From a virus, in the IMG/VR virus record IMGVR_UViG_3300029309_000106, positions 1-38,684 of that record: DNA of 38,684 nucleotides. One strand, 5' to 3'. The translations under genes were made by a program, and so were the position numbers. Under the pieces are notes generated by a model. That model did not search any database. It was given only the letters and a program-made list of their open reading frames with translations, and had not been told where the DNA came from. This document shows, in pieces, positions 13,501-38,475 of this stretch (its first letter is position 1; each line of letters starts with the position of its first letter).

Positions 13501-16500
13501 TGATAGATTTGGTAAAGCTTTAGATATAAACAATGATATAGATTTACCTTCAATACGAGAATCTGCACTATTATGTGATACTCGTTCTGATGTTTCTCTG
13601 CCTTTAGCAAGCACAGCTTCTTGTGTAGCAGGAGACGTTTATAAATTAGTAGATCCAGACAATAGTAATACACATATTGCTTCTGGTAAAGTTCTTGAAT
13701 CCACAAGTAATTCTGCAAGTGTTACATTTACAAATGTATCGGGTAAATTTATTCGTTCTTATCAAGATTACGTATCTTACAATGTAGGAGATATTGTTAC
13801 AAATGTTGTATCAGGAGAAAGTAAATATTACCGAGTTACAACTGCAGGAATAAAATCTACTGCTCCAACCCATGCCACAGGTACAACAAATGGATTTAAA
13901 TACATTTCTTCAATATCACTAACAAGAGAAACAGGCAGTGGCCCCAGCACTTTAACACTTGGTGCAGATGGTAGAACACCAGAATATAGTTTATACGATT
14001 CCGATTTTGTAAAATATTGGAGATACTTAGGGTGGGAGGAAAACAGACAATATGCTGTAACTCGACATCAAACTAATTTTATCTTTGCTACAGAAAGATC
14101 AATCTTTGAAAACATTAATGCTTTACTTTCACACTTTAATGGTATACTTTCATATTCAAATGGAAAATATTTATTAAGTGTAGAGACAGCAGAAAATGTT
14201 CCAAGCTCTAATGTTCAAAATGGTATTGAGCAAAATCCAGAATTTATAACAAATGACGACATACTCGGCACTATTAGTCTAAATGATAATAGCCAAAAGA
14301 ACGCTAAAAATACAATTAAAGCAAGTATAAGTGACCCTCAAAATAATTTTAGTTCAAGGGCAGTATCTTTCTTTAACTCAGATTTTCTAAAAGCGGATAA
14401 AGGAAAAGTAAAAACTGGAAGTTATCCGATTACAGGAATTACAAGTTATTATAATGCTCGTATAGGAGTAGAGAAAGAATTAATACAAAGTAGGTATAGT
14501 AAAGAAATATCATTTACAGTTGGGCCAAAAGGTTTACTTCTTAGACCTGGTGAAGTTATCGCACTTACTTATGAGCCTTTTGGTTTTGAGAGCAAGTTAT
14601 TTAGAATAGAAAACTTAACCTATAACTCAAATTGTAATACATCTATAAAAGCTAGAGAATATAATGAGAATATTTATGCAATTACTAGCCAGAGAGCAAG
14701 TATTGCACAAGCAGCTGCTTCAGGAGGTAACCTATCTCTTGCGGCACCAGGCGCTCCACAGAATCTTACAACAGCAACTGCTAAACCAGGTATTGTTACA
14801 CTTAATTGGACAAATGGTGCAGGATTCAAAGAAGCTATTGACTCTACTGAAATATGGAGAGCTAATACTCAAGGTAGTAGTGGCTCTGTTCCTGATCATG
14901 CTGACTTACTTACTGTAGTAGATAATGCTACTACTTTTAATGACGCAGTAGGTGTTGCAGGAACTTATTTCTATTGGATTCGACATCGAAGAATGTCAAG
15001 AAGAACAAGTGATAACTCAACAGTAAAATTATTGAGTGCTTATGAATCAAATATAGATGCAGGTGTATCTGGAGTAGCAAAAGTTCTATCTCCTCAACTT
15101 GATGTAGATATTTCTAGTTTTCAAGTTAAATTCAATGCATCAAATGCACTAACTCCCGGAGGAGCTTCGCAAGATGCTACATTTACTGCAACACTCAGAA
15201 ATATTACTTCTAATAGTGTGACATTTACACTTGTAGACGCAGATGGTACTACAACAGCCACAGATGGTGTTGTGTTTACAAATAACAGTACAAGCGTAGT
15301 GGATAGTAGTGCACCTTTTACAGCAACCCTCGATGCTTCTAGTTTCTCACATAATACAGCAAACAAGTTTGTAAAAGTAGCTGTAACAGATTCAGGAACA
15401 AGTGAAAACTTTACAGAACTCATACCAATTACAGTAACAAAAGATGGAAGTTCTGGAGGTGTTGGAGTTGATGCAGTAGCAATCAAACTAACTCCAAGTA
15501 GTCATGTAGTAGCTTATACTGCAGTTGGTGGAGAAACTACAACTGTAAGTTTTACTACTGCTTCACAGGGAACTGGTGGATTTTCAGGCACTCCTCATTT
15601 TAGATTCTTAGTAGGTGGAGTAACTCAAGCGACTTCTACAACATCTACATTTACTTTAGCAGATCATTCAGCTTCTTGTACATTTACTAGTGGAAGTACA
15701 ACTGTTACTCACTCTTCTGGTACAACATTTTTTCCAGGTCAAAGAGTTATTTCAGATTCAGTTCCCGAGGGAACAACAATAGCAAGCGTCACTAATGGTA
15801 CAACTTTTGTATTAAGTGCTAACGCAACAGCAAGTGGAGCAGTTACCACAACTATTACCGATGAACCAGCAGCAGATAATACTGTTGCAGTTACTGTTCA
15901 GCTATTTGATGGAGATCCAAGTGCAAGTGGCACACTCAAAGCTTCCGATACAGTTACAATTTTTGGTGTAAGATCTGGTACAGATAGTATAACAGCTTTC
16001 TTAACAAATAATTCACATACAGTATCATCAAATCCAGACGGAACATTTGCAAGTGGAGCACTTGATGATGCAGGTGGAACATTCAAAGTTTTTGTTGGAA
16101 CAACAGATAAAACAGGCGATTGTACTTTTGCAGAAGTTTCAGGAGAAGAAACTAGTGGTTTAACTAGTAGTATAAATAGTAGCACTGGGGTATACGCAGT
16201 TACTGGTCTTACAGTAGATAGTGCTGTAAATATATTTAGAGCAACAATACCAGCTAACGTTTCTCCTTCAGGTAACGCAGTCACATTAGACCAAACATAT
16301 AGTATATCAAAATCACGAACAGGGCAAACAGGATCAGCGGGGTCAGATGCAAAAACAGTAAAACTCACTTCAACTGGGTATGCAATCGCGTATGATGAAA
16401 ATAATGGAAGCCCTTCACCTAGTGGCACTCTTACATTAACTGCAACAGCGTCAAACTTTACAAACCCTTTCTTTAAATTTACAGGTGATGGTATAACTGA

Positions 16501-19500
16501 TGAAACTTCATACACAGATGGAGCATCGGGAGATTCAGATACTATTAGTTTTTCTATTCCTACTAGCTTCTTTTCAACACCACAAGTTTTAAGAGTGGGA
16601 GTTGCAGAACAAGCTGCAGCTACAACAGAGATCGCTTTTGATTCTATAGCAATCGCAGCAGTTAAAGATGGTGGAACGGGTGCAGATGCTTTTACTGTAA
16701 TACTTACAAATGAATCTCACACTTTACCTGCAAACTCATCAGGAACGGTTACAAGTTTTGCTGGGTCAGGCACAGATATTCAAGTTTTTAAAGGAACTTC
16801 TCCTTTAGAAGGTATTTTATCAGGAACTCCTTCAACAGGTAAATTTAAAGTTACTGCTACGCCTTCAAATATTACTACTGGAACTATTTCTCTCCAAAGC
16901 AGTGATGAAATAGTTCGAGTCGCAAATCACAGTAATATGACTCAAGATATTGCAAGTATTTCTTACAGCATAGATGTGGAGGGTACTAGTACCACATTTA
17001 TCAAAAAACAATCTTTTACAAAATCAAAAGAAGGCGCAGAAGGAGACGACTCTATAAGTGGAGTACTAACAAATGAAAATACTTCTGCTATTGAGTTTCA
17101 AGGATTTGGTGCTCAATCAGGGTCTTTCATAGTTTATTCTGGAACAAGTGGTGAATTTAAAGTATTTGAAGGTGCAACAGAAAAAACAAGTGGAGTCGTT
17201 TTTGGCATAAGTGGAGGAAGTTCTTCAAGTGGTTCTACAACTAAAACTCAAAATAATTTAACTCTTACTATTAATAATAGTACAGGAATATATAGTGTAA
17301 GTGGAGCAAGTTGGAGCACAGAAGCAGAAACGTTTACACTTACTGCAACAATTGGTAGCACAGTTATAGAAAGAGTCTTCAATATAGATAAAAAAGTTGG
17401 TTTAACAGTTACAAGATTAACTGCATCAGAGCAAGCGTTTAGTTATGATGGAAATGGAGCAAATCCAAGTCCTGGTACAATTACTCTTACTGCTTCTGAG
17501 CCTACTGCTTTTTCTCAATTTCCTTCAGGAAATTATCAGTATAGATTTAGTAAATCAACAAATAACGGAGCAAGTTTTAGTGTTCTTGGTAGCGGATTTT
17601 CTACAAATGGAAATCTAAGTGATAGACAACTTTCTGTAAGTGCAGGAGCTCTAAGTTTAGGAAATGAAATATTTAAAGTTGAAGTAAGACACTCAAGTAA
17701 TACTAGTCAAATATTAGACGAAGATCAAACAACTCTTCTTAGATTAAAAGAGGGAGCTGCTGGAGCACCAGGTAGTCAAACAGCAAATATACAAATATAT
17801 AAAAGAACTAGTTCCTCTTCTGCTCCAGCTAAACCAGGTAATGGTTCAACATTTACTTTTAGTACAGCAGCATTAACAGGACAAGCTATAACAGATGGGT
17901 GGAGTCAGACAGTTCCAAGTGGAACAGCGCAATATTTATGGACATGTAGTAAAACAATTACAGCATCAGCATCTACAACATCTGTAACAATTAATCAAGC
18001 AGACTGGTCAACTGTAGTTTTACAATCAGAAGCACAAGTATCTAGAGTTGCAACAAAAAGAATTTATTTTGATTCATGGGCTTTTGGGGATAATTTACCT
18101 ACTATAAGTAATACTCAAAGAGATGGAATTTCATATAACTTTGATACTGGAGCATGTACTAGTTTACCTCCAAGCTGGAGTACTAGCATTGGCACAGTAC
18201 CCTATGCATATGTAGATGTTACATTTAACGAAAGTACATATGAAGGATCGTATACTAGAAGTTTAGGAGCTATTCGTGTAGTTGGAGTTTTTGACCGAAT
18301 AGATGTTGATGACTTTGATGTAAGTTTTGATGCTTCTAATGATTTTCAGTTACGATTTGGAAACGCAGGGGTAGGAACATCAGCATTTCAAACTACAACG
18401 ACTCCTGCTGGACTTAAAAATAATCAGATTAGTTTAGACTCTGATGGTAAAATAACAGGAGCTAGTTCAACTCTTAGTAATGTAGTAGTTTCAAATGAAA
18501 AAGTTACAGTTAATAATGATGGAAAACTAGTAGGAATAGGAACTACTGATATAAAAGTTGATGTATCAAAAATTGCTTCTAGTGATGTAGTAGGTGTCTC
18601 GGGTAAATTATTTACTGCTTTACCAGCTTCAGGAGCAACAGTAGGTGCTACTGCGGGAACTGATCTTAAAGAATCAGATGGAAGTGTACTTGCAGACACA
18701 GCAATTAAAAATGACGAACTAGATGTAGCTATTGATGGAACAGCAATTAAATTAAAAATAGGAAGTAATGAAACTTCAACAGTAACAGCGACTCAAGGAC
18801 TTGTCGGATTAAGTGGAGTTCAAAATGATGCTGACCAAACAAGCACTAATACTTCTGCAGATACAGCTAAAGTAAATAATGTTGCTGCTTCAACAGTTTC
18901 GGGAGGAGCAGCAAGAGCCAACTCAGGATTAACTTCTACAGGAGTTGTAAATAAACTTGTACCAAAAGAAAAGGGTGGTTTTAATGAAGATATATCTGGA
19001 AAAACTGGAGTATTAGACTTTAGTAGTGGAACTGCAAACTTTAGATCAACTCTACCGACAAATAGAGGCGGGTTCGGACTAAACGTTGCAACCTTATTTG
19101 GAAGCGATATAGGGAGATTCCCAAGATGGAACGGCACCACTTTTGAAGTTGCAAATGAAAATGATTTTAAAAATGACCAAATTATAGATGGAAGTGGTAA
19201 CTTATTAGATAGTGTTGATATTAATTTACCTGGTGGTAGTACCATTAGCACAACTCAACTACAAAATATAAAAGGTACTTTTGATAATATTGATAATTCA
19301 TCTAATATAAAATTAAGTGCTTCTAAAGTTCCGATTGATTCAAATATATTTGAAGCACCAGGAGCTGTTGTTACAATCAAAGACAATGGTATTGATGGAG
19401 ACGCAATTAGTAGCTCAACTACAATTATAGCAGGCTCAGGAGCAAATAGAGCAGTATTAGATGGAGCACATTCCTCAGTAAGAATATACGCAGGAAGTGC

Positions 19501-21187
19501 TGGAGATCCTCTTGCTAATGGTGCAGAAGCTCCTTTCAGAGTAACTCAACAAGGAGTGCTTACTGCAACAAAAACTACTTTAGGTAGTACTTCAGGTATT
19601 GCTCTTAATGTATCCTCAGGAGATAATACAGTACTAATCAATACTCCAAGTAATACTACAGGTACGGTATTCCAAGCTGGAGGAGATGCAAACTCTACTT
19701 ATATACCTTTTAAAGTTTTAGGTAATAAAACAGGAATAATTAGAGCTTTTGATATTTTTACTTCAGACGGTACAAAAATATTTGACAAAGATAGTGGATT
19801 AACAGATGATGCACTTACAACTATTGCTCAAGCAACAGGAAGTGCTGTCTCAACTGTATCAAAAACAACAAACAGTGAAACATCAAGTGATGCTCAAAAG
19901 ATAACAAATGGAAACTCAAGCCAGACTGTAACAGTGAAACTATTTAAAGACGGTGATGGAATGCAAGGTTTTGATACTGGAACTATTGGTAATGCAATAG
20001 CAGATATTCCAAGTCAAATAGTTTTAAAAGTATTTAAATCAGCAAATGCAAATTTAAGCAGTCCAACTCAACTTGGGTCTACTAGAACATTAAATAGAAT
20101 AACATCAGGTTCTCCTAGTCAAAGTGAATATTTTGTTGACGTAGAAAGTGAGTCTGAGCCAGGATTCGAGTTCCATTTTGCTACTCTCCCTTCTTCGAAT
20201 AGTAGTTCTGCAAGTAGTACACCCTTTAATGCTGAAGGTAATATAGAGGTATCTGTAACAGATACTCTATCAGCAGGACAAGTTGTATATTACTTTACTG
20301 AAATAACAGGAACTGGAGGTAATGGCCAAGGGTCAAATAATAGAACTTCAACAGCAACAAGAACACTCAGTGTTACAGCAGCTTCAGGAAACACATTTAC
20401 AATTGATGCGGCTGGAGATAGTACTGATGCAGGTGGTGGAGATATTACTGGAGTAACAGTAACACCTGGTACTGGACTTGTTACAGAAGCTGGGAATGCT
20501 AGCACAGCTAGTGGAGCGCACAATCAAACATTAGGAGTAAATACAGGAGCAGTCTCAAATGGAGCTACAACAATTCCAACAGGAGACCATGTTTATGACC
20601 ATGTTACTACTCGTATTAGTGGATTAACTTCTAATGCTGGTACAGTTACAAGTGTAGCTGCGGGTACAGGACTAAGTGGTGGTACAATAACTTCTTCTGG
20701 AACTATTAGTATGCCAAACTCAGGTGTAACTGCAGGAAGTTATACAAACACTAACTTAACTGTTGATGCACAAGGTAGAATTACTGCGGCTTCAAATGGT
20801 TCAAGTGGTGGTGGTGGTCTACCTTCAGGAATGACATACTCAAGTTCTATACTTGATGTAACAGGACAAATACGAGCTACTGGAGACGTTACTGCGTTCC
20901 ATAGTTCAGATATAAGATTTAAAGATAATATAAAAATTATTAGTAATGCAGTAGAAAAAGTTTCAAAACTACGAGGCGTTGAGTTTGACTGGAATGAGAC
21001 TTCGGACTATGCAGGAGAACATGATATAGGAGTTATTGCACAAGATGTAGAAAAAGTAGCTCCAGAAATTGTAATAGATAGAGATGACGGGTATAAAGCA
21101 GTTAACTATCAGAAACTTACAGTTTTACTAATAGAAGCGGTAAAAGAATTAAAAGAAGAAATAAAAGAACTTAAAAAAGACAAATAA
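10535..21187 (+). CDS. Giant tail-tip protein: gpJ-like hub, Ig-like modules, fibre shaft and S74 chaperone
   Basis: This 3550-residue protein has a mosaic layout. Residues 1-115 (DPFEYAHLIKFERP, RYVYLTDGQRDLTYDGDTY) resemble tail-hub DUF2163-like domains, with a beta insert near 205-270. A gpJ-like hub spans about 340-1390, with PAIQLTDMLVNDRFG near 975 and LLLRPGEVIALTYEPFGFES near 1330. A fibronectin type III-like domain follows at about 1405-1490 (APGAPQNLTTATAKPGIVTLNW). Repeated Ig-like modules cover about 1634-2400, and a QTANIQIYKR domain lies near 2408. A Gly/Ser/Thr-rich fibre shaft leads to a C-terminal intramolecular chaperone: SSDIRFKDN holds the Ser3458/Lys3463 pair with the S-x4-K spacing of peptidase S74, then GVIAQDVEKVAPE and a coiled coil. 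Self-cleavage before Ser3458 would release 93 residues after trimer folding. The protein probably forms the tip that contacts the host. Confidence 0.85.
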   Translation: MAERDINNPNLRTALINGDPFEYAHLIKFERPFVPFKGDHRTNANRYVYLTDGQRDLTYDGDTYRASGIMTVGGYSETTQAKATNMSLTLPGEFLGTKFSFTGNFTNAGKIRGRDADNIDFFEEGFREGDKVRLTRTNGTDFSDGDNQKDFIVTGFELANERIVLARTGTDTDDSAFLSSSTGNIGLTLELINEEYKGATMEKGTTQNVASTADGTATITLTAANSKIEKGQLVSGPGVIDETVVKSINGTTLILTKEQPRIPAGAKLVFTNPSFVNREVFVYKAFINPETGGVYGDPVLIFKGITASTNIQESPNSSKVQWNLTSHWGDFAEIRGRITTDEIHRSVDANGKANPDLTIRPEYATDLGFLHAESSLNTIAIYQTTETRTRMKSKKRGGLAGLVGMKKYYMEEYQVQVDNEVDLSVHLQGRHLPVLYGVQRINGIPIFADTKSNNSKEVYVVYALAEGQVHGIYNMYIDGAPLICTDKSDFDVRNASTGTDKDNTQLQCYGRADQGSTLSGANVTASTGNTIIDIDDEDLAEDMHEEYAEYSAYANINQGRARQFQNFNESSIQSLSTSSDAEGLRHRETASISHPYSMHFTFYQGKRNQKGDNNLTTIAQANQFKRQADYFSGSKAYWSPEHRLLDTAYAVMKFTIDADQTTIPDIEYVVKGKVLENYNYDGTYVPDPFYTSDAHTNFLEGDTVKVQVDSSGFKYLKEDGTLTVTESEGADFRILDKYLFTPAEGTAYYRFRLDNVPNLYVSGGTTHSVPQYTSLRLRSGSNSWYMLTYNHEVLGATTWPEADQTITTNTMSTDSNGVLKATLTNAQKTKLQNFYSGLTGSTSSSNAFLQFKGGKGIFGKLREAVFQAIISGNEITFSGTNYSANQNSNSGQPLNGTAILSSTVFDFSNISALASLSNNARVVGATLEIIETGEKRTITDFNTTSNFLTIDDPFVKPPTAENTFRINEKGADSRSSINPAIQLTDMLVNDRFGKALDINNDIDLPSIRESALLCDTRSDVSLPLASTASCVAGDVYKLVDPDNSNTHIASGKVLESTSNSASVTFTNVSGKFIRSYQDYVSYNVGDIVTNVVSGESKYYRVTTAGIKSTAPTHATGTTNGFKYISSISLTRETGSGPSTLTLGADGRTPEYSLYDSDFVKYWRYLGWEENRQYAVTRHQTNFIFATERSIFENINALLSHFNGILSYSNGKYLLSVETAENVPSSNVQNGIEQNPEFITNDDILGTISLNDNSQKNAKNTIKASISDPQNNFSSRAVSFFNSDFLKADKGKVKTGSYPITGITSYYNARIGVEKELIQSRYSKEISFTVGPKGLLLRPGEVIALTYEPFGFESKLFRIENLTYNSNCNTSIKAREYNENIYAITSQRASIAQAAASGGNLSLAAPGAPQNLTTATAKPGIVTLNWTNGAGFKEAIDSTEIWRANTQGSSGSVPDHADLLTVVDNATTFNDAVGVAGTYFYWIRHRRMSRRTSDNSTVKLLSAYESNIDAGVSGVAKVLSPQLDVDISSFQVKFNASNALTPGGASQDATFTATLRNITSNSVTFTLVDADGTTTATDGVVFTNNSTSVVDSSAPFTATLDASSFSHNTANKFVKVAVTDSGTSENFTELIPITVTKDGSSGGVGVDAVAIKLTPSSHVVAYTAVGGETTTVSFTTASQGTGGFSGTPHFRFLVGGVTQATSTTSTFTLADHSASCTFTSGSTTVTHSSGTTFFPGQRVISDSVPEGTTIASVTNGTTFVLSANATASGAVTTTITDEPAADNTVAVTVQLFDGDPSASGTLKASDTVTIFGVRSGTDSITAFLTNNSHTVSSNPDGTFASGALDDAGGTFKVFVGTTDKTGDCTFAEVSGEETSGLTSSINSSTGVYAVTGLTVDSAVNIFRATIPANVSPSGNAVTLDQTYSISKSRTGQTGSAGSDAKTVKLTSTGYAIAYDENNGSPSPSGTLTLTATASNFTNPFFKFTGDGITDETSYTDGASGDSDTISFSIPTSFFSTPQVLRVGVAEQAAATTEIAFDSIAIAAVKDGGTGADAFTVILTNESHTLPANSSGTVTSFAGSGTDIQVFKGTSPLEGILSGTPSTGKFKVTATPSNITTGTISLQSSDEIVRVANHSNMTQDIASISYSIDVEGTSTTFIKKQSFTKSKEGAEGDDSISGVLTNENTSAIEFQGFGAQSGSFIVYSGTSGEFKVFEGATEKTSGVVFGISGGSSSSGSTTKTQNNLTLTINNSTGIYSVSGASWSTEAETFTLTATIGSTVIERVFNIDKKVGLTVTRLTASEQAFSYDGNGANPSPGTITLTASEPTAFSQFPSGNYQYRFSKSTNNGASFSVLGSGFSTNGNLSDRQLSVSAGALSLGNEIFKVEVRHSSNTSQILDEDQTTLLRLKEGAAGAPGSQTANIQIYKRTSSSSAPAKPGNGSTFTFSTAALTGQAITDGWSQTVPSGTAQYLWTCSKTITASASTTSVTINQADWSTVVLQSEAQVSRVATKRIYFDSWAFGDNLPTISNTQRDGISYNFDTGACTSLPPSWSTSIGTVPYAYVDVTFNESTYEGSYTRSLGAIRVVGVFDRIDVDDFDVSFDASNDFQLRFGNAGVGTSAFQTTTTPAGLKNNQISLDSDGKITGASSTLSNVVVSNEKVTVNNDGKLVGIGTTDIKVDVSKIASSDVVGVSGKLFTALPASGATVGATAGTDLKESDGSVLADTAIKNDELDVAIDGTAIKLKIGSNETSTVTATQGLVGLSGVQNDADQTSTNTSADTAKVNNVAASTVSGGAARANSGLTSTGVVNKLVPKEKGGFNEDISGKTGVLDFSSGTANFRSTLPTNRGGFGLNVATLFGSDIGRFPRWNGTTFEVANENDFKNDQIIDGSGNLLDSVDINLPGGSTISTTQLQNIKGTFDNIDNSSNIKLSASKVPIDSNIFEAPGAVVTIKDNGIDGDAISSSTTIIAGSGANRAVLDGAHSSVRIYAGSAGDPLANGAEAPFRVTQQGVLTATKTTLGSTSGIALNVSSGDNTVLINTPSNTTGTVFQAGGDANSTYIPFKVLGNKTGIIRAFDIFTSDGTKIFDKDSGLTDDALTTIAQATGSAVSTVSKTTNSETSSDAQKITNGNSSQTVTVKLFKDGDGMQGFDTGTIGNAIADIPSQIVLKVFKSANANLSSPTQLGSTRTLNRITSGSPSQSEYFVDVESESEPGFEFHFATLPSSNSSSASSTPFNAEGNIEVSVTDTLSAGQVVYYFTEITGTGGNGQGSNNRTSTATRTLSVTAASGNTFTIDAAGDSTDAGGGDITGVTVTPGTGLVTEAGNASTASGAHNQTLGVNTGAVSNGATTIPTGDHVYDHVTTRISGLTSNAGTVTSVAAGTGLSGGTITSSGTISMPNSGVTAGSYTNTNLTVDAQGRITAASNGSSGGGGLPSGMTYSSSILDVTGQIRATGDVTAFHSSDIRFKDNIKIISNAVEKVSKLRGVEFDWNETSDYAGEHDIGVIAQDVEKVAPEIVIDRDDGYKAVNYQKLTVLLIEAVKELKEEIKELKKDK
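15435..17760 (+). repeat. Alternating Ig-like modules inside the tail-tip gene
   Basis: Two module types recur in the protein. Type A has (A/T)-x-(K/R)LT followed by (A/F)-(A/S)-Y and a Pro-Ser-(P)-Gly-T strand; it begins near residues 1634, 1922 and 2286. Type B begins (D)S/F-x-x-(F/V/I)LTN(N/E)-(S/N)-H/T and later has F-K/Q-V-F-x-G; it begins near 1814, 2044 and 2166. The order is A-B-A-B-B-A. Linkers such as KDG-SGG, GSAGSD, KDGGTGAD and KEGAEGDD mark the joints. The copies are diverged, so this is old duplication rather than a recent tandem repeat. Confidence 0.6.
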
Positions 21188-21230: not shown

Positions 21231-21260
21231 TTGACTTTAGGTATAAATTTTTGGTATAAT
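21231..21260 (+). promoter_or_regulatory. Sigma-70 promoter for the fibre block
   Basis: TTGACT (21231-21236) and TATAAT (21255-21260) are separated by 18 bases: five of six matches at -35 and six of six at -10. Transcription would start near 21267, leaving a short leader of about 16 bases with GGAG at 21269-21272 before the ATG at 21283. It sits in one of the few intergenic gaps in the window. It closely resembles the promoter at 36454, which strengthens the call. Confidence 0.8.
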
Positions 21261-29079: not shown

Positions 29080-32000
29080 ATGGCAACAGATCATAATTTT
29101 AGAATAAAAAACGGCCTCGAAGTAGGCGGCGTATTAATAGTGAATTCATCGGGGCAACTTCGTGTTGCAACAGTATCATCTAATCTAAATCTTTTAGATA
29201 GTGTAAGATTAAATGTAGGTACAGGTAACGATTTAGCTATTTTTCATACTGGTAGTAATGGTGTAATACATAATACTACAGGTGAATTAAGAATCCGAAG
29301 TAATACTTTAAAAATCCAAGACTTTACTAACGAAGACAATATGATTGTTGCAACTTCAAACAGTTCAGTAGACTTATATCACAATAATATTAAAGCATTT
29401 GAAACAACTACTTCAGGTATAATGGCACGAAGTCCACATGGTTATATTACAGTAGGGCCTGCTAATAGTAGCTTTGCACATATACAAACAGATAGAGCTC
29501 AATTTTATTTTAACAAAAAATTAAATGTTAATGAAGGTATTATAACATCTTATGATGAAGACTTGCAATTACAAAGAGTAGGTTCTACTAAAGTAACATT
29601 AAATTCAACAGGTGCATCAGTTTCAGGTAATCTTGGCATCAATGAAACTTCCCCTGATTCTAGATTGCATATTACTGGAACAGATGGTGGTTGGGATAAA
29701 CATATTACTATTGAGCACGATGGAAGCGATATAGGTAAAATCTTAGTTGATACCGATGGTATGAAGTTTAGAAATATGAGCAGTGGAAATGCTTTCTACT
29801 TTAGAGATAGTTCAAACAACACTCGTATGATTATAACTTCAAGTGGATCAGTTGGAATTGGAACAACTTCTCCAGCTGGTGGTCTGCATGTTGCAGGGTT
29901 TATTAGAGTAGATAATGCTGAAGGTATAGCAACTAGGAAAGTTAGGGCTAGTTATTTTTCTACTAGCCAAAATTTAATACTAGAAACTCATTCATCATCA
30001 GATATAATAATGGATACAGGCAAGGTTGGTATTGGAACAAGTTCACCAGTAAGTCCTTTAACTATTAAATCAAACTCAGTAAGTTCGCAAGAAAGCGGTC
30101 TTGCTATTATAGCTAATGGTAGTAATGATGCAATCTTTAAAGTTGCTGAAAGATCAACAAATGGTGCACGTATGCATATGTTTGATGGAGGAGTTGAAAA
30201 AATTGCCTTCTATACAGATGGAACAGCAAACCATATAAGTGCAGGTAATCTTGGTATTGGGATAACATCTCCAAGTCATAAACTTCACGTAGCTGGAACA
30301 GGAAAATTTGAGGGTGCACTTACTGTAGTAGTTTCATCTGGAGGCGGAGCTGCTTTAGCTATAAATCATTCTGGAAACGAAAACTGGTCTTTTGATGCAA
30401 GAAGTGGCTCAGGTTCAACTGACTATGTAGACTTTGGTATTGCGGGGGGTACAAGATGTATGACTTGGCAAGAAGATGGCAAAGTTGGTATAGGTACAAC
30501 TGCACCAGACGCACCTTTAACAGTTCATAGTAGTTCCGACCCTGAAATAAGAGTTGGTTATAGTTCTTCACAAGACCATAGAATTACTTGGGATAGTGCT
30601 AAATTATTTTTAGATGCCGACCCTGATAATGCTAATAATAATTCTGCTCTAGGGTTTAGAGTTGATGGAAGTGAGGCTGCTAGATTTGATTCATCAGGTA
30701 ATTTTGGTATAGGAACAAGTTCTCTTACAAATAAATTTCATGTAAGCGGTAATGCAAGAATTGAAGGTAATCTTATGGCTGGTGGTGCAGCTGCATCTAA
30801 TGTTCCAGCTAGACCTATTCATGTAAAATCAAGTGGAGACGGAGCTGCAATTCGTATTGAAGATACTACAAGTAGTAATCTTGCTTATGATATAAGAAGT
30901 ACACATGGCACAGGTTTATTATTTGTTGATGTAACAAATGGTGCTACCCGAATGACTATTAAAGATTCAGGTGGAATTAATTTTAATAATGCATATACTT
31001 TTCCAACATCAGATGGCTCAGCAAACCAAGTACTACAAACAGATGGTTCAGGTAACTTAAGTTTTGCTACTGTGCAATCAGGTGGTGGTACAATCACTGG
31101 TGTTTCTAATATGGCAAATAATAGAATACTTACAGCACAGGGCTCAACTACTATTAATGCTGAAAGTAAACTTACTTTTGATGGAAGTACATTATTATCA
31201 ACTGGAAATTCTATAATTGTTGATCCTGCTTCAAGTGATGCAGTATTATCCTTACAAGGTGCTTCAGGAGCCCAAACACTTAGGTTAGATCAAAATAGTA
31301 TTAGAACTATGACAAATTCTAACTTAGATATATTTACAAATGGAAATAGTAATCAACTTTACTTAAGACAAAGTAATGGTTTTGTAGGTATAGGAACATC
31401 TGCACCTTTAAGAAATTTAGAAGTAAGTGGTGCTGGAGCTAAACTTCGTGTAGGGCCAGATTACTATACAGCAAATGGAAGTACTGATAGAGATTTTGTT
31501 GAATTACAAGCTCATGGTAGTGATACTAAAATAGTATCGCCTAACGAAAGATTCCATATTGAAAATACCTCAGGAGATATAATATTAACTAGTAATGCTG
31601 TTGCTATTGGTACTAATGGTACTGTAAGTGCTAAAACAGTAATTAACGTTAATGCATCTGGAACACAAGCCGCTTTACTTTTAAACAATGCACATAGTTA
31701 TGGAAGTGGCGTTGGTACCGCTTCTACAGCATTACAATTTGCACGAGATAATACACCTACTAATGGCCAAGCAATTATAGGTGCACAGATACATTCAGGT
31801 AATGAAAACGAAAGTACAAGTAATCCACAAAATTTAATATTCTCAACTAAATCTGGAACAAGCCCGTATAACTTAACAGAGGCAATGAGGATTACTTCTC
31901 AACAGCGTGTTGGCATCGGAACTACATCGCCTGGCCAAAAACTAGAAGTTGCCGGTCGTGTTAGAGCAACAAGTGATCCAACTTTTGAGACATATGAATC

Positions 32001-35000
32001 ATCAACTAAAAGAGGTGGTATTCAATGGAATACTGGAAGTGATTATCTAAATTTATTCACTGTAGGTGGACATATAGTATTATCTGGAAATGGTAATAAC
32101 GTTGGTATAGACACTACTTCACCAGGACAAAAACTTGATGTTGCTGGTAATACAACATCAAATGCTTATATACTTAGGGCAAATGGATCCGCACCAACTG
32201 CTGATGCAGCTATATTTAGGGCAGCCGATAATACTTTAGCATTTTCTACAGGAAGCAGTGAAAAAATGCGTATTGATTCAGCTGGTAATATTGGTATTAA
32301 TGATCCAAGTCCTGATAGAAAAGTTAGTATTATTGGTGATAGTACATCTAATGGACAATATCCATTATCACTTGATGCAACAAATACAGATTACACATTA
32401 GAATTTAGAAGAAACGGACAATCTGAATGGTGGATTAAACAAGCTGGATCTAGTTTTAATATACATGAAAATGGAGTAGGAGACCACTTCCGAATAGCAG
32501 CAGGTGGTAGTATCGGTATTGGAACCACATCACCCGCTCAAAAACTTCAGGTAGAAGGAAATATTCGAATGAATACACCTGATACTGGTGGTGCACCGGC
32601 AATGACATCTACATTAGAAATGAGAGGTTATGAAGGTCGTGGTGTTGGCGTAAAAATAAGAGATTCTGTTAACAGTGCAAGTAGCCCAAATAATAGAGAA
32701 TGGTTTGTAGGAAGTGGGTATGGTACCTCTGGATTTAGAATTGGTTACGCAAGTGACGGCAATCAATCAGAGTATTCAGGCCAACAAGCACTTCACATTG
32801 ATACCTCACGTAATGTTAGTATTGCTCAAGGCAACTTGCAAATGGGAGGCACAACAGTAATTGATTCTTCAAGAAATCTTACTGTAGTAGGTATTACAGG
32901 CACAGGTAGTTATCATGAGATTGGTAACAATACAGGAGCAGTTAGTAATGATGGAAGTTGGAATGCAAGACTTAATATTGCTGGTACTTCGCATGCTCGT
33001 TTAGATTTATTTGAAGACGCAGATGATTCTAAACTAAGACTATATGTTCACGTAGGCCAACAGGCGAAGATTCAAACTACTTCAAATACAAATATAGACT
33101 TAGGTACAAATGGTTCCAATAGAGTAATAATTGATAGTAGTGGATTAAATATTGTATCGGGTCATTCTATAAGACATAATAGTACAACTGTTTTAGACTC
33201 ATCAAAAAATCTTGTAAATATAGGAACTATCTCTAGTGGTGCTATAACTTCTAATGTAAGTGATGGTACAGCAATTACTTTAAAAAGAAGTGGAAGTACA
33301 GCAGCTAAATTTGGCGTAGCTGCTGGACCAGTAGGATTTTTAGTTCTAAATGATACAACCTCTAATAATGTAGCCGCAATTAAAGGTACAAGTGCTGCGA
33401 TTTTACCATCTACTAACGCAGGAGCAGATAAACATGGAACAATGAACTTAGGTTCAAGTAGTGTAAAATTTGCAAATCTTTTCCTTTCAAATTATGCAGA
33501 CGCATCTTCATATAGAGTTGGTACAACTACAGTTATTGATTCTTCAAGAAACTTAACCAATATAGCATCAGCAAATATTGGAGGTGATTTAAACATTGCG
33601 AGTGTTATTGCCCATACTGGTGATTTAGACACTTACTTTCAATTCAATGCAGCTAATACAGCAAGAATTGTCGTAGGTGGATCTCAAAAATTTGTAGTTA
33701 ATACTAATGGTGTGTCTATATCTAATGGCACTCTAAATATGAATAGTGGAGATATTACTTCTGGAGGAAACATAACAGTTGGAGATAGCTCAACTGCAAA
33801 ACAAGTAAGAGCTCACTATAATGATGGTGCTCATATGACTCTTACAGGGTATGGTTTAGAAATGAATCGTGGTGCTTCTTACATACGACCAACTACAGAT
33901 GGTAATAAAACACTTTATATTGGAGGAGCAGATGCCTCCTTAGATTGGTCATCAATCCATTTTAGAAGTGTAAACGGTCTTTATATGACTGGCACTAAAT
34001 TTATTGACGCAAGTAGAAACATTAGTAATATTAATACTTTTTCTTCAACAGTAGCAGCACTTGGTCAAGCTGCAAGTGCTATGGACCAAACTAATCTTGA
34101 TTTAGACGTTGCAGGAAATGTGTCTATTCGTGGTGGGTCTGCACTTTATTTTGGTATTACAACAAATAACTATAATTCTTGGAAAGGTAAAATTTGGAAT
34201 AATAATACCTCAACAATGCAAATTAATGCGCAAGCATTAAACTTTAATAATACTGGTTACGGTTCAAGCACATTCTTTGTATCTAATTCAACTGGATTTG
34301 ATATTCGTACTGGTAGCTTATTAATGAATGGTACAGCAGTTATAGATTCTTCAAGAAACCTTAATAATATTGGTACTATTAACATTGGTGGAACAACTAC
34401 AGTCGGAGACTTTAAAACATCTGGTACAGTACAACTTGGTGGTAGTAGAGGAGTAATGCTAAAATCATTAACTGCAGTATTTAGTAATGGTACAGCAAAT
34501 CAATATGCTCGTGTAAATTTAGGTAATAATTATTTTTCAGGAACTTTTAAAGTTAAAGTACAAGGAACATATAGCCATCAAAATACTGTTGGATATATAG
34601 AAAAAATTTGGTCAGTTGGATTAAATATTAACAATAGTGTATGGAGAAATACAGTTGAGCGAGTAGACCAATTTGGACTTGCAGCTCAAAACTTTACTAT
34701 AGGAGATATTGCTTGGGACGGTTCTCAGTATTATTTTGATATTTATCATATTGTTTCTACAGGTAATAATATAAATATTGATCTTGAACTTCATAGTCAT
34801 AACGCTCAACCTGCTATGTATACTGCTTTTGATGGAGTTACAGTAAGTAGTGTTACAACAGGCACTATACCAAGTGCTTTTAGTAGTCAATTTGCTTCTG
34901 GAGTAACTCCTTTTAGAAACACTAGATTAACAATTGATGGTGACATGAATGTAGGAGATGGCTCGAATGATAGTAGAGTTATAATTAAAAAGCCAGATAA

Positions 35001-36450
35001 TAATGTTGCAGATCATATACAGTTTTTTAATGGATCAACAAGAACAGGCGAAATGGGTTCCATGGACAATTCATGGTTAAGAATAAACCAAGTAACTAAT
35101 AAAAATATTTATACTCCAAGATATATTCGTGCTGATAATGGATTCTTTATTGATAGTACTTCAAAAGGTATTGATGGAAATGGTAATTTATTAGGAATTG
35201 GAACAGTTGCTTGTGGTGCTATAACAAGTAGTGCAGTCCAAACATTTACAAAATCTGTTTATGGTGATTTTTCATCAGAAAACTTTTACAGAATTAAATT
35301 TCAAGATCAAGGTGGCATAACAAATGACGTAGGCATAGGACAATTCCAGAGTGGAGCTTTAGGTTTCAATGTTACACAAGGGCAAGAGTTTAGATTTAAT
35401 GAAGGAACAGATGGAATTGTTGGTGTTATAGGACCAAATGGTGTAGATGCTAGACAAGGTGGTTTCAGAATTGGTACAACCACAGTTATAAATTCTTCAA
35501 GAGAAATAAGAAACTGTCCTGGAATTTTTAATTCAAGTGATTTAGAAGCACTTACATTAGATCATGCAACATACACAATACTAAGAACTCCTGAAGCTCA
35601 TTCTGCATTACATTTAGGAGATAGTGCAGATAGGGGTAACTATTACTCAAACAATGCTCACTACTTTAGAGATTTTAGTTCAAATATGTTATTAACTTTA
35701 ACAGGAAGTGTTGCAAACTTAAATGGAATTAATTTACAGATGAGTGGAACAACAGTACTAGATAGTTCAAGAAATCTTACAAATATAGGAACTTCTAATT
35801 TTTCAGGAGCTATGACAGTAAATGCAAACATAGATTTAAGTTCAACAGATACAGCTACTCGTTATATACACATGCCTCGAGGCGGTGGAATCACATTCTA
35901 TGGAGATACAAGTGTACACCATGGTATATTCTCAAGAAACCAATCTAATAGTTCAGCAGATGATTTACTAATTAGTTCTTATGGTGCAGTTTATATTGAT
36001 TTAGACTCAAATAGCAATAATAGCTCAGCTGCAGATTTCATAATTGGCAAACATAACTCTACTGGATTAAATTTATTCAGTGTTAATGGAGAAACGGGAG
36101 CTGTAATTGGAACAAATGACATTACTGCATTTGGTTCACCATCAGATATTAGACTTAAAGAAAATATAGAAGTAATTGCTGATCCAATAGAAAAGGTACT
36201 AAAACTAAGAGGTGTCACATTTAATTACAAAGACACAGGTAAAAAATCAACTGGACTTATTGCACAAGATTTAGAAGAAGTCTTGCCAGAAGTTGTTTAT
36301 GAAACACATGATATAAATGATGAAGAAAATAAATTTAAAGCAGTGAGATATGGTAATACCGTAGGTTTATTGGTTGAAGCAATAAAAACACAACAAGAAC
36401 AAATTGACGAACTTAAACAACAAGTTCAAGATTTAACGAATCAAAAATAG
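29080..36450 (+). CDS. Very large tail fibre protein with C-terminal S74 intramolecular chaperone
   Basis: This 2456-residue protein follows GGAG at 29065-29068. The N-terminus (DHNFRIKNGLEVGGVLIV) resembles fibre attachment ends of marine phages. About eleven VGIGTTSP-type units run from about residue 185 to 1165, then seven or eight TTVIDSSRNLTNIGT-type units from about 1265 to 2240. A globular insert lies near 1800-1950 (VMLKSLTAVFSNG, YFSGTFKVKVQGTY). The C-terminus is a peptidase S74 chaperone: SPSDIRLKENIEV holds Ser2355/Lys2360 with the S-x4-K spacing of the catalytic pair, then STGLIAQDLEEVLPEVV and a coiled coil (QQEQIDELKQQVQDL). Self-cleavage would release about 102 residues once the trimer has folded. 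It is likely a main host-binding fibre. Confidence 0.85.
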   Translation: MATDHNFRIKNGLEVGGVLIVNSSGQLRVATVSSNLNLLDSVRLNVGTGNDLAIFHTGSNGVIHNTTGELRIRSNTLKIQDFTNEDNMIVATSNSSVDLYHNNIKAFETTTSGIMARSPHGYITVGPANSSFAHIQTDRAQFYFNKKLNVNEGIITSYDEDLQLQRVGSTKVTLNSTGASVSGNLGINETSPDSRLHITGTDGGWDKHITIEHDGSDIGKILVDTDGMKFRNMSSGNAFYFRDSSNNTRMIITSSGSVGIGTTSPAGGLHVAGFIRVDNAEGIATRKVRASYFSTSQNLILETHSSSDIIMDTGKVGIGTSSPVSPLTIKSNSVSSQESGLAIIANGSNDAIFKVAERSTNGARMHMFDGGVEKIAFYTDGTANHISAGNLGIGITSPSHKLHVAGTGKFEGALTVVVSSGGGAALAINHSGNENWSFDARSGSGSTDYVDFGIAGGTRCMTWQEDGKVGIGTTAPDAPLTVHSSSDPEIRVGYSSSQDHRITWDSAKLFLDADPDNANNNSALGFRVDGSEAARFDSSGNFGIGTSSLTNKFHVSGNARIEGNLMAGGAAASNVPARPIHVKSSGDGAAIRIEDTTSSNLAYDIRSTHGTGLLFVDVTNGATRMTIKDSGGINFNNAYTFPTSDGSANQVLQTDGSGNLSFATVQSGGGTITGVSNMANNRILTAQGSTTINAESKLTFDGSTLLSTGNSIIVDPASSDAVLSLQGASGAQTLRLDQNSIRTMTNSNLDIFTNGNSNQLYLRQSNGFVGIGTSAPLRNLEVSGAGAKLRVGPDYYTANGSTDRDFVELQAHGSDTKIVSPNERFHIENTSGDIILTSNAVAIGTNGTVSAKTVINVNASGTQAALLLNNAHSYGSGVGTASTALQFARDNTPTNGQAIIGAQIHSGNENESTSNPQNLIFSTKSGTSPYNLTEAMRITSQQRVGIGTTSPGQKLEVAGRVRATSDPTFETYESSTKRGGIQWNTGSDYLNLFTVGGHIVLSGNGNNVGIDTTSPGQKLDVAGNTTSNAYILRANGSAPTADAAIFRAADNTLAFSTGSSEKMRIDSAGNIGINDPSPDRKVSIIGDSTSNGQYPLSLDATNTDYTLEFRRNGQSEWWIKQAGSSFNIHENGVGDHFRIAAGGSIGIGTTSPAQKLQVEGNIRMNTPDTGGAPAMTSTLEMRGYEGRGVGVKIRDSVNSASSPNNREWFVGSGYGTSGFRIGYASDGNQSEYSGQQALHIDTSRNVSIAQGNLQMGGTTVIDSSRNLTVVGITGTGSYHEIGNNTGAVSNDGSWNARLNIAGTSHARLDLFEDADDSKLRLYVHVGQQAKIQTTSNTNIDLGTNGSNRVIIDSSGLNIVSGHSIRHNSTTVLDSSKNLVNIGTISSGAITSNVSDGTAITLKRSGSTAAKFGVAAGPVGFLVLNDTTSNNVAAIKGTSAAILPSTNAGADKHGTMNLGSSSVKFANLFLSNYADASSYRVGTTTVIDSSRNLTNIASANIGGDLNIASVIAHTGDLDTYFQFNAANTARIVVGGSQKFVVNTNGVSISNGTLNMNSGDITSGGNITVGDSSTAKQVRAHYNDGAHMTLTGYGLEMNRGASYIRPTTDGNKTLYIGGADASLDWSSIHFRSVNGLYMTGTKFIDASRNISNINTFSSTVAALGQAASAMDQTNLDLDVAGNVSIRGGSALYFGITTNNYNSWKGKIWNNNTSTMQINAQALNFNNTGYGSSTFFVSNSTGFDIRTGSLLMNGTAVIDSSRNLNNIGTINIGGTTTVGDFKTSGTVQLGGSRGVMLKSLTAVFSNGTANQYARVNLGNNYFSGTFKVKVQGTYSHQNTVGYIEKIWSVGLNINNSVWRNTVERVDQFGLAAQNFTIGDIAWDGSQYYFDIYHIVSTGNNINIDLELHSHNAQPAMYTAFDGVTVSSVTTGTIPSAFSSQFASGVTPFRNTRLTIDGDMNVGDGSNDSRVIIKKPDNNVADHIQFFNGSTRTGEMGSMDNSWLRINQVTNKNIYTPRYIRADNGFFIDSTSKGIDGNGNLLGIGTVACGAITSSAVQTFTKSVYGDFSSENFYRIKFQDQGGITNDVGIGQFQSGALGFNVTQGQEFRFNEGTDGIVGVIGPNGVDARQGGFRIGTTTVINSSREIRNCPGIFNSSDLEALTLDHATYTILRTPEAHSALHLGDSADRGNYYSNNAHYFRDFSSNMLLTLTGSVANLNGINLQMSGTTVLDSSRNLTNIGTSNFSGAMTVNANIDLSSTDTATRYIHMPRGGGITFYGDTSVHHGIFSRNQSNSSADDLLISSYGAVYIDLDSNSNNSSAADFIIGKHNSTGLNLFSVNGETGAVIGTNDITAFGSPSDIRLKENIEVIADPIEKVLKLRGVTFNYKDTGKKSTGLIAQDLEEVLPEVVYETHDINDEENKFKAVRYGNTVGLLVEAIKTQQEQIDELKQQVQDLTNQK
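30984..31090 (+). repeat. Segment shared with the previous fibre gene (copy 2)
   Basis: This encodes NNAYTFPTSDGSANQVLQTD and the following GSGNLSFATVQSGGGT, matching the copy at about 25052-25158. The shared 15-base word cAGGTAACTTAAGTT within it is identical in both genes. Confidence 0.7.
32855..35800 (+). repeat. VIDSSRNL repeat series in the last fibre gene
   Basis: Units of the form G-TT-V-I-D-S-S-R-N-L-x-N-I recur about every 100-170 residues (for example near 32855, 33185, 33525, 34335, 35485 and 35750, with a looser FIDASRNI near 34000). Each is preceded by a strand region and followed by a short 'I-x-x-G' strand. They probably mark repeated beta-structural blocks of the fibre shaft. 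Confidence 0.65.
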
Positions 36451-36453
36451 TTC

Positions 36454-36482
36454 TTGACTTGAGAACAAAATTTTGATATAAT
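36454..36482 (+). promoter_or_regulatory. Sigma-70 promoter for the Hint unit
   Basis: TTGACT (36454-36459) and TATAAT (36477-36482) are 17 bases apart: five of six and six of six consensus matches with ideal spacing. It begins 4 bases after the stop of the giant fibre gene. Transcription would start near 36489, giving a leader of about 44 bases with a hairpin and a strong AGAGGAG ribosome site (36519-36525) before the ATG at 36533. Confidence 0.85.
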
Positions 36483-36495
36483 TTAAAAATAAATA

Positions 36496-36511
36496 TAGGA
36501 CATTCGTCCTA
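36496..36511 (+). other. Leader hairpin downstream of the second promoter
   Basis: TAGGAC, loop ATTC, GTCCTA form a perfect 6-bp stem a few bases after the predicted transcription start. A hairpin at the 5' end of an mRNA can slow decay and raise yield. It does not block the ribosome site, which lies 8 bases further on. No T-run follows, so it is not a terminator. Confidence 0.5.
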
Positions 36512-36532
36512 AGGCTATAGAGGAGAAACATT

Positions 36533-36799
36533 ATGGCAATAACAAAAGTAACAAAAGTACAACGTATCGAAGTATACCCAGCAATGGACTCAAGTGCGGC
36601 ATCTACAAAAAATGATGCACATGAAAGAGTAATGGTTGTATACGAAGACACTCTAGATGATAGTGGAGACGCAGATTTACCTGTAACTGCTACAAGAGTA
36701 AAACATTTAACAAAATTAGTTGCAGATGATGGAGCAGCAACAGACTACTCAGGTGAAGATGCACTTGTAAAAGTAGTTTGCGCAGCAATCTGGGCATAA
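36533..36799 (+). CDS. Small conserved virion-type protein
   Basis: This 88-residue protein has a strong ribosome site (AGAGGAG) and its own promoter. It begins AITKVTKVQRIEVYPAMDSS, with the strand ERVMVVYEDTLDDSGDADLP and a C-terminal helix region GEDALVKVVCAAIWA. I recognise this as a small protein often found near the structural genes of marine phages; its role is not known to me. The high promoter and ribosome-site quality suggests abundant production, so a virion or assembly component is likely. It is separated from the Hint-domain gene by 3 bases, and the two are probably co-expressed. Confidence 0.6.
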   Translation: MAITKVTKVQRIEVYPAMDSSAASTKNDAHERVMVVYEDTLDDSGDADLPVTATRVKHLTKLVADDGAATDYSGEDALVKVVCAAIWA

Positions 36800-36802
36800 A
36801 AT

Positions 36803-37999
36803 ATGGCTACCCCTGCTAACAATAGTACACCCATTACATTACTTGGTATACAAAGAGAAGTATTTAATAATAACTATAACGCATCAAATACTCATAGTGA
36901 TATTTCTTTAACTGATTTAAGTGAAGAAGCAGATGAAAATTTTAATGCAAATAGTCCAAGTAAGCCTGATGGAAATACGCCGCATGCAATGAGTGAGTGG
37001 TATAATTACGACCATGATGCAGCTCCCGCATTTACTTGGGGCACTAATGGAGGCGTATCTCAAGGTTGGGGTAGTGCATCAGGTAATTCACCATTTACAG
37101 CAAATGCAACTTGTAGTCTTGGTTTTGCATTTCAACCTGCTAATGATAGAGTAAGAGTAAAACATGGTAACGGTAATAATAGTAGTGCTGTATCTTATAG
37201 TTATAATAGCGTTAGCTATACAGGAGCCGACCCAGATCAGGTAGAATTTAAAATAGTTTGGACAGGAGTATTTTCTGGATCAACCACTAGTTCATCAGAA
37301 GCTTCAGGTTCAACTTCAGGTACTTATTATCAAATGTCTAAACAAACGACCTCAAGTGACAGCGGTACTTTTACTATGAGAAACTGGTTCATACAGAAAT
37401 CATCTGGCGTAGGTGGTGCAGCATATAATGCAATTGGAGCTAATAGTCCACAGTGGACATATAGAGCAAAAGATTCAAGTGGAAATGTAATAGCAACAAG
37501 TGGTACCTCAAGTCAAAATGGAATTTCACTTTCAGTAACTAGAGGTCAACAAGGCGGAGAGTTCTTCTGTATACATGAAGATATAATGATTCAAACTGAA
37601 CAAGGATTAATGAGTGTAAAAGATGTTGCAGACAAAGATCCGAAGATATGGACTTATAACTGGAATACTGGAGAAAAAGAATTACAAGACCAAAATCACA
37701 ATATTCAAATAGTTCACAATAATTTATATACTATAAATGATAACTTTAAAATTACAGAAGACCATATTATGTATGATAAAGAAAAACGAGAATATACTAT
37801 TAATCCAGATGCAACTCTAGATAAATATGGTAAAACTTCTCAAAAACTATCAGTTGGAATATCACTTAAAACTTTTGATGGCACCGACTTTATTGTGGAA
37901 AAAATTGAACGCTATGAAGGAGATCATTGGACGTACACAATTAGTACAGATAATGGAAACTTTTATGCAGGAAACTTATTAGTGGATTCAGAAATATGA
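36803..37999 (+). CDS. Virion-type protein with C-terminal Hint (hedgehog/intein) domain
   Basis: This 398-residue protein starts 3 bases after the previous stop without its own clear ribosome site. Residues 1-80 (STPITLLGIQREVFN, SLTDLSEEADEN, HAMSEWYNYDH) match N-termini of phage virion proteins. Residues 80-250 are Ser/Gly-rich beta structure. From Cys256 (FFCIHEDIMIQTEQGLMSVK) to the end is a Hint domain: the Cys256 nucleophile, a T318-E-D-H321 TxxH motif, a late IVEKIERYEGDHWTYTISTD strand pair and a final NFYAGNLLV. The normal end, VHN plus Cys/Ser/Thr, is replaced by VDSEI, so the Asn needed for splicing is absent. It may self-cleave before Cys256 or form an ester or amide link there, rather than splice. 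No homing endonuclease is inserted. The catalytic outcome is inferred. Confidence 0.75.
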   Translation: MATPANNSTPITLLGIQREVFNNNYNASNTHSDISLTDLSEEADENFNANSPSKPDGNTPHAMSEWYNYDHDAAPAFTWGTNGGVSQGWGSASGNSPFTANATCSLGFAFQPANDRVRVKHGNGNNSSAVSYSYNSVSYTGADPDQVEFKIVWTGVFSGSTTSSSEASGSTSGTYYQMSKQTTSSDSGTFTMRNWFIQKSSGVGGAAYNAIGANSPQWTYRAKDSSGNVIATSGTSSQNGISLSVTRGQQGGEFFCIHEDIMIQTEQGLMSVKDVADKDPKIWTYNWNTGEKELQDQNHNIQIVHNNLYTINDNFKITEDHIMYDKEKREYTINPDATLDKYGKTSQKLSVGISLKTFDGTDFIVEKIERYEGDHWTYTISTDNGNFYAGNLLVDSEI

Positions 38000-38163
38000 A
38001 AAGTTATTTAGTAACATGTACTTATAGTGGTGGAACTAAACAAGGTTACATGCACGGTGAAGATTATGAAGAAGGCACTGCAGAGTATAATGCAGAGTTG
38101 GCTAGACTAACTGCAGAGGCTCAAAAAGGATTTGATAACTGGGATGCAGGAGATCGAGAATAA
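37996..38163 (+). CDS. Small 55-residue protein overlapping the Hint gene
   Basis: An ATG at 37996 overlaps the Hint gene stop as ATGA, and the frame ends at TAA 38161-38163, giving 55 residues. It starts MKSYLVTCTYSGGTKQGYMH and continues with an acidic helical part (EEGTAEYNAELARLTAEAQK) ending FDNWDAGDRE. It is below the usual size cut-off but has a coupling overlap, codon use like its neighbours, and ends 24 bases before the terminator. It is the third gene of the promoter-to-terminator unit. I do not recognise the family. Possible roles are a Hint partner or a small virion or host-interaction protein; none is shown. Confidence 0.6.
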   Translation: MKSYLVTCTYSGGTKQGYMHGEDYEEGTAEYNAELARLTAEAQKGFDNWDAGDRE

Positions 38164-38186
38164 ATAGTTTATTTACTAAAAATAAA

Positions 38187-38213
38187 AAAGGGGCTTTACG
38201 CCCCTTTCTTTTT
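38187..38213 (+). terminator. Bidirectional intrinsic terminator
   Basis: AAAGGGGC (38187-38194), loop TTTAC, GCCCCTTT (38200-38207), then CTTTTT on the + strand. On the - strand the same stem is followed by a T-rich run (complement of 38176-38186). It lies between the + strand late genes and the - strand DUF6447/ribonucleotide reductase genes, so it stops transcription from both sides. Confidence 0.9.
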
Positions 38214-38475
38214 AGACCTCTTCGGCCTCTACCACTTCAGGTTCTTCTGGTGGATTATCAATAACTTCTTTTAGTCTTTTGGTAAATCCCTCTGAAGCAA
38301 CAACTATTTGGTCTAATTCCATTTGTATGTTTTGTTTTTTCACACCTAGATTATTTAGACACGCAACATAGTATTGTGCTTCTTGATTAAGCTCTGAAAT
38401 GACATATTTCTTATCATCAAGCACTACGACTGGTTCTTCGTTAGTTACTTGAGGAGTTACATTTTCTGTCGACAT
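38212..38475 (-). CDS. DUF6447-like small protein
   Basis: This 87-residue acidic protein starts at 38475 after AGGAG, which overlaps the stop of the upstream reductase gene (sequence TAGGAGAAAATATG on the - strand), so expression is coupled. The centre reads VVLDDKKYVISELNQEAQYY, then a helical coiled part with IQMELDQIVVASEGFTKRLKE, then an acidic tail (EEPEVVEAEEV). A short beta hairpin followed by a long helix, 'L-D/N-G-x-x-Y-x-(I/V)-x-(D/E)-L-x-x-x-(A/Q)', is the pattern I associate with DUF6447 of marine phages. The function is unknown. The stop codon sits in the tail of the terminator. Confidence 0.6.
   Translation of the reverse strand: MSTENVTPQVTNEEPVVVLDDKKYVISELNQEAQYYVACLNNLGVKKQNIQMELDQIVVASEGFTKRLKEVIDNPPEEPEVVEAEEV

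Follow-up and report, generated by a model that had tools for sequence, protein, structure and literature searches.

A fibre-associated protein of uncultured tailed phages with a C-terminal Hint domain predicted to remove itself

The DNA that we analysed, here called the window, is a linear virus record of 38,684 bases from IMG/VR (IMGVR_UViG_3300029309_000106). It carries the gene set of a long-tailed phage, including a tail terminator, a major tail protein, a base plate tail tube, two tail assembly chaperones, a distal tail protein, and an L-shaped-fibre assembly protein. Two giant fibre genes, at 10535-21187 (3550 aa) and 29080-36450 (2456 aa), both end in Peptidase_S74; the C-terminal domain of the second fibre, encoded on the plus strand, is a self-cleaving chaperone matched by PF13884 with an E value of 4e-16. 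Downstream of this fibre gene, the initial annotation had recognized three ORFs of 88, 398, and 55 aa, and their coordinates and lengths are exactly as it gave them. All three are on the plus strand: ORF1 (36533-36799), the gene of the 398-aa protein (36803-37999), and ORF3 (37996-38163), whose start overlaps the stop of the 398-aa protein gene as ATGA. The 398-aa gene adjoins genuine tail genes and the S74 fibre, in agreement with the position first assigned to it. At the right end of the window, a conserved 87-aa gene (phrog_21153; 38212-38475, minus strand) and nrdB run convergent to the tail genes, with the 87-aa gene between the tail-fibre slot and nrdB. Homologues of the 87-aa gene are found beside nrdB in L012, L016-L019, L022, L051, and L053 (L numbers designate the other sequences compared). 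The gene content and the relatives of the window, rather than sample records, point to a marine origin of the samples.

The locus had been described as a self-contained unit that begins with a strong promoter and a leader hairpin and ends with a strong terminator. The promoter is present as an extended -10 sigma70-type site (TTGACT-17-TATAAT with TG) on the plus strand at 36454-36482 and is better than chance, as two sites of such strength occur on the plus strand of the 38.7-kb window and about 0.075 are expected. The other site (21231-21260, TTGACT-18-TATAAT with TG) is located just upstream of the L-shaped-fibre assembly gene, which starts at 21283. We found no counterpart of the promoter upstream of ORF1 in the relatives examined, and many contigs have no room for one because the start of ORF1 lies at or within the end of the gene before it. 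The small leader hairpin (TAGGACATTCGTCCTA; 36496-36511, plus strand) did not stand up to scrutiny: its z of -1.9 is near chance, with 11 of 200 shuffles equally stable, and it has no Rfam match and was not found in relatives. On these grounds, including the lack of conservation, a regulatory leader RNA was ruled out. The terminator at 38184-38210 is present, has a GGGGC..GCCCC stem, and is predicted to work both ways, as an intrinsic terminator shared by the tail operon and the convergent nrdB operon (folding z of -2.9 on the plus strand and -3.9 on the minus strand). The same stem occurs in L012, L016, L017, and L018, three of which lack the Hint gene, and no terminator-like site was found on the plus strand between the fibre gene and the promoter. 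The idea of a self-contained unit is thus not supported, because its terminator lies between convergent operons and is kept even without the Hint gene and its promoter has no counterpart in relatives.

The proposal of a three-gene accessory cassette likewise had to be rejected, because ORF1 is widespread without Hint. ORF1 represents a separate family with relatives in 30 other IMG/VR contigs, nearly all of them without an adjoining Hint gene, and we regard it as an upstream neighbour outside the Hint unit. A Hint gene adjoins ORF1 in just three of the ORF1-bearing contigs, namely the window, L012, and L047. In L016, L017, and L022, ORF1 and the convergent gene have nothing between them; downstream of ORF1 are a lone 86-aa N-terminal module in L018, two other proteins in L019, and Hint-less proteins of 240-245 aa in L035-L039. 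The expected linkage in relatives thus failed for ORF1 but was seen for ORF3 within one Hint group. Homologues of ORF3 are present in 7 of the 31 records searched, all 7 of which carry the Hint gene, and in none of the Hint-less records. Most Hint genes have no ORF3, which tracks a single Hint group; on the Hint tree, the ORF3-bearing sequences correspond to one change with weak support (67/32). A different 51-aa overlapping gene (MSLGPITNVPYV...) follows Hint-less homologues in L035 (1775-1930), L036 (6994-7149), and L037 (6270-6425), and a 68-aa gene (MTWIVVKQYF...) takes this place in the L055-L062 group, each allele type having its own small companion.

The 398-aa protein consists of distinct modules. 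The N-terminal module (about residues 1-72; 36803-37018, plus strand) has 43-48% identity to the N-terminal modules of other contigs and a low pLDDT on its own, and it is probably a virion anchor. The middle domain (about residues 70-249; 37010-37549, plus strand) is modelled as a beta-sandwich with a pLDDT of 91.9 and a pTM of 0.86 and is probably the variable, receptor- or structure-facing part of the protein. Comparison of this domain with 993 PDB chains gave a best Z of 5.7 and no known fold, a result that is not evidence of a new fold. It occurs without Hint in L002-L005 and L035-L039. A Gly-containing linker, GQQGGEFF (residues 248-255; 37544-37567, plus strand), forms the N-terminal side of the predicted cut, and the Hint domain (residues 256-398; 37568-37996, plus strand) completes the protein. 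A virion-type N-terminal part joined to a Hint domain, as originally proposed, is supported.

Single-sequence searches with the whole protein in Pfam, PHROGs, NCBIfam, and PDB returned nothing useful. No curated model, PF13884 included, matched the 398-aa protein itself; Intein_splicing, PT-HINT, and intein_Nterm were otherwise reached at E values of only 0.006-0.09, short of the curated Pfam and NCBIfam cut-offs. When searched against solved structures, a profile of 5 relatives matched NrdJ-1 (9e-5) and DnaX (2e-4), and a profile of 16 sequences matched the NrdJ-1 intein 8ubs (E 2e-7), BIL2 (6y75, E 9e-5), and the DnaX intein (7cfv, E 1e-4). We also modelled the 398-aa protein with AlphaFold from 15 sequences (mean pLDDT 75). 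Residues 251-398 of the model matched 6y75 in Foldseek (5e-8) and in VIA (Z 20.6, rmsd 2.1 over 142 residues), and VIA further aligned them with Hedgehog 1at0 (Z 15.3) and with dozens of inteins (Z 13-17). We consider the Hint fold predicted for residues 251-398 to be real. Profile and structure comparison hence bear out both the Hint domain and the Phe255-Cys256 junction proposed in the initial annotation.

Alignment of 16 Hint sequences, which are 37-61% identical to that of the window, revealed 26 invariant columns out of 143. Present in all 16 sequences are Cys256 (37568-37570), His258, Glu259, the block-B residues Thr318 (37754-37756) and His321 (37763-37765), Asp320, Ser396 (37988-37990), and Glu397 (37991-37993), all encoded on the plus strand. 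All 16 aligned relatives have retained the residues predicted to carry out N-terminal cleavage. In some relatives, among them L047, L048, and L051, position -1, before Cys1, is Ile or Val; either residue there often slows the acyl shift. The C-terminal Asn (or Gln) of inteins is absent, and all 16 sequences have Ser in its place. In a gapless alignment with BIL2 (NFFANGVLAHA versus nfYaddiLvds of the profile), Asp395 falls on His142 and Ser396 on Asn143, which is mutated to Ala in the 6y75 chain. This register is settled by the second, myovirus-type group, which has kept the penultimate His and has Ser at the Asn position (LAHSE). There is no C-extein, as the protein stops 2 residues past the Asn position (12-13 residues in the second group). 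With Ser replacing Asn, neither canonical splicing nor Asn-driven cleavage at the C-terminus is expected. A decayed or unusual intein could in principle still splice, linking residues 1-255 to the three C-terminal residues (SEI), and both the sequence kinship with the NrdJ-1 and DnaX inteins and the Ser that follows Asp395 in most members would fit such an origin. However, none of the 16 sequences has the terminal Asn, the second group has His-Ser and so lacks the Asp too, virtually no C-extein exists, and the domain is terminal instead of lying within a conserved enzyme. We rejected splicing because of the missing Asn and consider even an unusual form of it highly improbable.

The invariant His258-Glu259 after Cys1 and the invariant Ser396-Glu397 at the C-terminus are not accounted for by ordinary Hint chemistry; given this unusual Ser-Glu end and Cys-x-His-Glu start, the domain could have another job. 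Pairs with usable divergence gave dN/dS values of 0.11-0.33 for Hint, which indicates that the domain is kept under purifying selection. It might be a chemically idle folding aid or cap, retained for its structure at the fibre tip. In favour of this reading, the AlphaFold model has a well-folded terminal domain, and the neighbouring S74 fibre shows that chaperone tails are in use here. Yet the Cys, Thr, and His are invariant among sequences of only 37-61% identity to that of the window, and because such an active site would be superfluous in an idle domain, we find a purely structural role quite unlikely.

The predicted cut site coincides with a domain boundary. Proteins without Hint terminate in GPGGGGL, GPGGGGGGL, or GGGPGGGFEP at exactly the point where their Hint-bearing homologues run into (F/I/V/L)-Cys. 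In the middle-domain tree, the Hint-less proteins are polyphyletic, with two separate changes, suggesting at least two gains or losses of Hint at this joint. Maximum-chi-square breakpoints were located after residues 260, 266, 220, and 159, close to Cys256, Cys267, Cys225, and Cys164, respectively, and values as high were reached in 0, 0, 0, and 1 of 1000 permutations. Breakpoints in DNA identity lay no more than 5 residues from Cys1 in 4 of the 4 pairs tested, which are all pairs tried. The synonymous divergence before the joint and in Hint was 0.40 and 1.17 for the window and L001, 0.53 and 0.23 for L006 and L011, and 0.32 and 0.10 for L055 and L061. The last two of these pairs and L055/L060 have members in common and are not fully independent. 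A mere difference in rate was dismissed as an explanation of the breakpoints, since synonymous divergence changes at the joint too, and recombination is favoured. The choice of Phe255-Cys256 as the cut site is thus in line with the domain boundary, with all four breakpoint pairs, and with the ends of the Hint-less proteins. Other parts of the protein have also been exchanged. L045 (584-2857) and L046 (5422-7695) share a stretch of 2274 bases at 99.6% identity, which begins about 50 codons into the Hint gene; the different N-terminal modules upstream of it are the result of a recent anchor swap. Between L055 and L061, the N-terminal module is 98-100% and Hint 96-100% identical, while the middle domain is only 68-82% identical, and the window-type and L055-type middle domains have no sequence similarity to each other.

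We analysed the distribution of this Hint family and found it in 21 further IMG/VR contigs, several of which are near-copies. Each of the 15 Hint-bearing records searched has one Hint, and all relatives of the Hint protein are metagenomic and uncultured. Using tblastn with the 398-aa protein, its halves, the proteins of relatives, ORF1, and ORF3, we detected no Hint relative in 50,697 phage records; the sole matches were N-terminal modules from Alteromonas AD45 phages and Vibrio phage CZ01. In the window, L012, L045-L048, L053, L055, L057, and L061, the Hint gene comes after an S74 fibre gene, either directly or with one or two small genes between, and most contigs with that side visible have the S74 fibre gene directly before it. 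In L006 and L043, the Hint gene is flanked upstream by the gene of another virion-type protein and downstream by ORF3 and a lysozyme-like gene. The protein encoded downstream in the L055-L062 group is read, by inspection of its sequence, as a putative contractile tail sheath. The Hint gene was thus found among tail-fibre genes in several phage lineages, whose labels come from a few marker genes, and this position suggests that its product is a virion protein.

The Hint domain of L046 (5269-6432, residues 275-382) has a weak match (E 0.013) to a region of phrog_34521, which is annotated as tail sheath and has 962 positions; this match possibly reflects a Hint or intein in tail sheath proteins. 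Scans of GTDB genomes gave nothing except a distant archaeal MAG with two Hints. This tandem pair, with the ends LVHN and LVSN, is encoded by a Thermoplasmata archaeon (L050, 5248-7255) and is the only distant cellular relative found. In the open-licence literature, the phage Hint domains that we encountered were all inteins, in genes for terminase, helicase, or ribonucleotide reductase (PMC3556154, PMC5259590, PMC5526547, PMC8790156). A Foldseek search of BFVD turned up Hint domains on fibronectin- or collagen-type proteins encoded by uncultured phages, so that Hint on a phage structural-type protein is already present in databases.

Overall, with a probability of about 0.6, our analysis suggests a fibre-associated virion protein built from modules, in which the C-terminal Hint tail of the 398-aa chain would cleave itself off. 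The modules would be, in order, an exchangeable N-terminal anchor, a variable beta-sandwich, a Gly-rich linker, and a removable Hint tail. On the model of the Hedgehog and B-type BIL domains, Cys256, aided by Thr318 and His321, would convert the Phe255-Cys256 bond to a thioester through an N-S acyl shift, and the thioester would then be hydrolysed. The products would be a mature protein of about 255 residues with a free Gly-rich C-terminus and a 143-residue Hint fragment. The fold, the catalytic residues, the loss of Asn, the domain boundary, selection, and the gene context support this proposal. Counting against it are the Ile or Val at position -1 in some relatives and the unusual invariant ends of the domain. 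Cleavage would take place during assembly, and the mature product would be expected in the virion.

Alternatively, a specific nucleophile, such as a lipid, a sugar, an amine, or a virion or host protein, could attack the thioester as in Hedgehog, resulting in covalent attachment at the C-terminus. The residues of Hedgehog autoprocessing are kept, and the model aligns with 1at0 as noted above. The Gly-rich linker ahead of Cys1 is exposed and flexible, ORF3 is a group-specific partner that overlaps the Hint gene and might help the transfer step in one Hint group, and plain hydrolysis does not account for the invariant Ser396-Glu397 near the active site. On the other hand, the protein stops at Hint and has no acceptor-binding domain past it, ORF3 is missing beside most Hint genes, and Hint-less homologues have a similar Gly-rich end without any attachment chemistry. 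As Hint-less alleles encode such an end directly, we prefer plain cleavage and regard attachment as unlikely, although it stays a candidate in view of the invariant Ser-Glu end and the companion gene ORF3. A more specific version, in which the Hint thioester couples the fibre-tip protein via its Gly-rich C-terminus to a specific acceptor (a host-surface molecule or a virion part), the Ser-Glu end is a new catalytic element, and the Hedgehog-like attachment acts in entry or assembly, is doubtful and offered as speculation.

If plain cleavage does occur, marine phages of at least two tail types (long-tailed T5-like and contractile) mature an exchangeable fibre-associated protein by Hint chemistry, next to a fibre whose own self-cleaving tail (S74) is of an unrelated kind. 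It would provide a concrete biological job for Hint domains without the splicing Asn, and such naturally N-cleaving domains could serve as protein-engineering tools. The adhesin domains, in turn, appear to be swappable between conserved flanking modules.

Several known systems resemble the proposed one in part. The Peptidase_S74 tails (PF13884) are self-removing C-terminal domains on tail fibres, as is predicted for the Hint tail, and one of them is on the neighbouring gene, but their fold and chemistry are unrelated to Hint. The BFVD Hint proteins of uncultured Caudovirales have Hint joined to adhesin- or fibre-like parts with fibronectin III or collagen repeats, yet their Foldseek matches to our model have only 11-19% identity. 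Class 1 inteins (NrdJ-1, DnaX, gp41-1) are the best sequence matches and share Cys1 and the block-B Thr and His, whereas the phage Hint has Ser for the terminal Asn, no C-extein, and no conserved enzyme around it. The Hog domain of Hedgehog carries out only the first step and needs no Asn (PMC7664689). As is predicted for the phage domain, it is a C-terminal self-cleaving Hint (VIA Z 15.3 to our model); unlike it, it has a sterol-recognition region, while the phage protein ends at Hint. B-type BIL domains have the intein motifs except the C-terminal His-Asn motif and reportedly also cleave at the C-terminus by an atypical reaction (PMC7765530). The phage domain differs from them in its location at the extreme C-terminus of fibre-associated proteins, in its invariant Ser-Glu end and Cys-x-His-Glu start, in that no curated model reaches it, and in that C-terminal cleavage is unexpected. 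It shares with them the Hint fold, the N-terminal Cys, the motifs minus the C-terminal one, and a variable, non-conserved host protein, and N-terminal cleavage would be expected of both. Indeed, the motif pattern and the variable protein, with its variable middle and swapped N-terminal modules, are those of a B-type BIL, and among solved structures a BIL domain (6y75, Z 20.6) comes closest.
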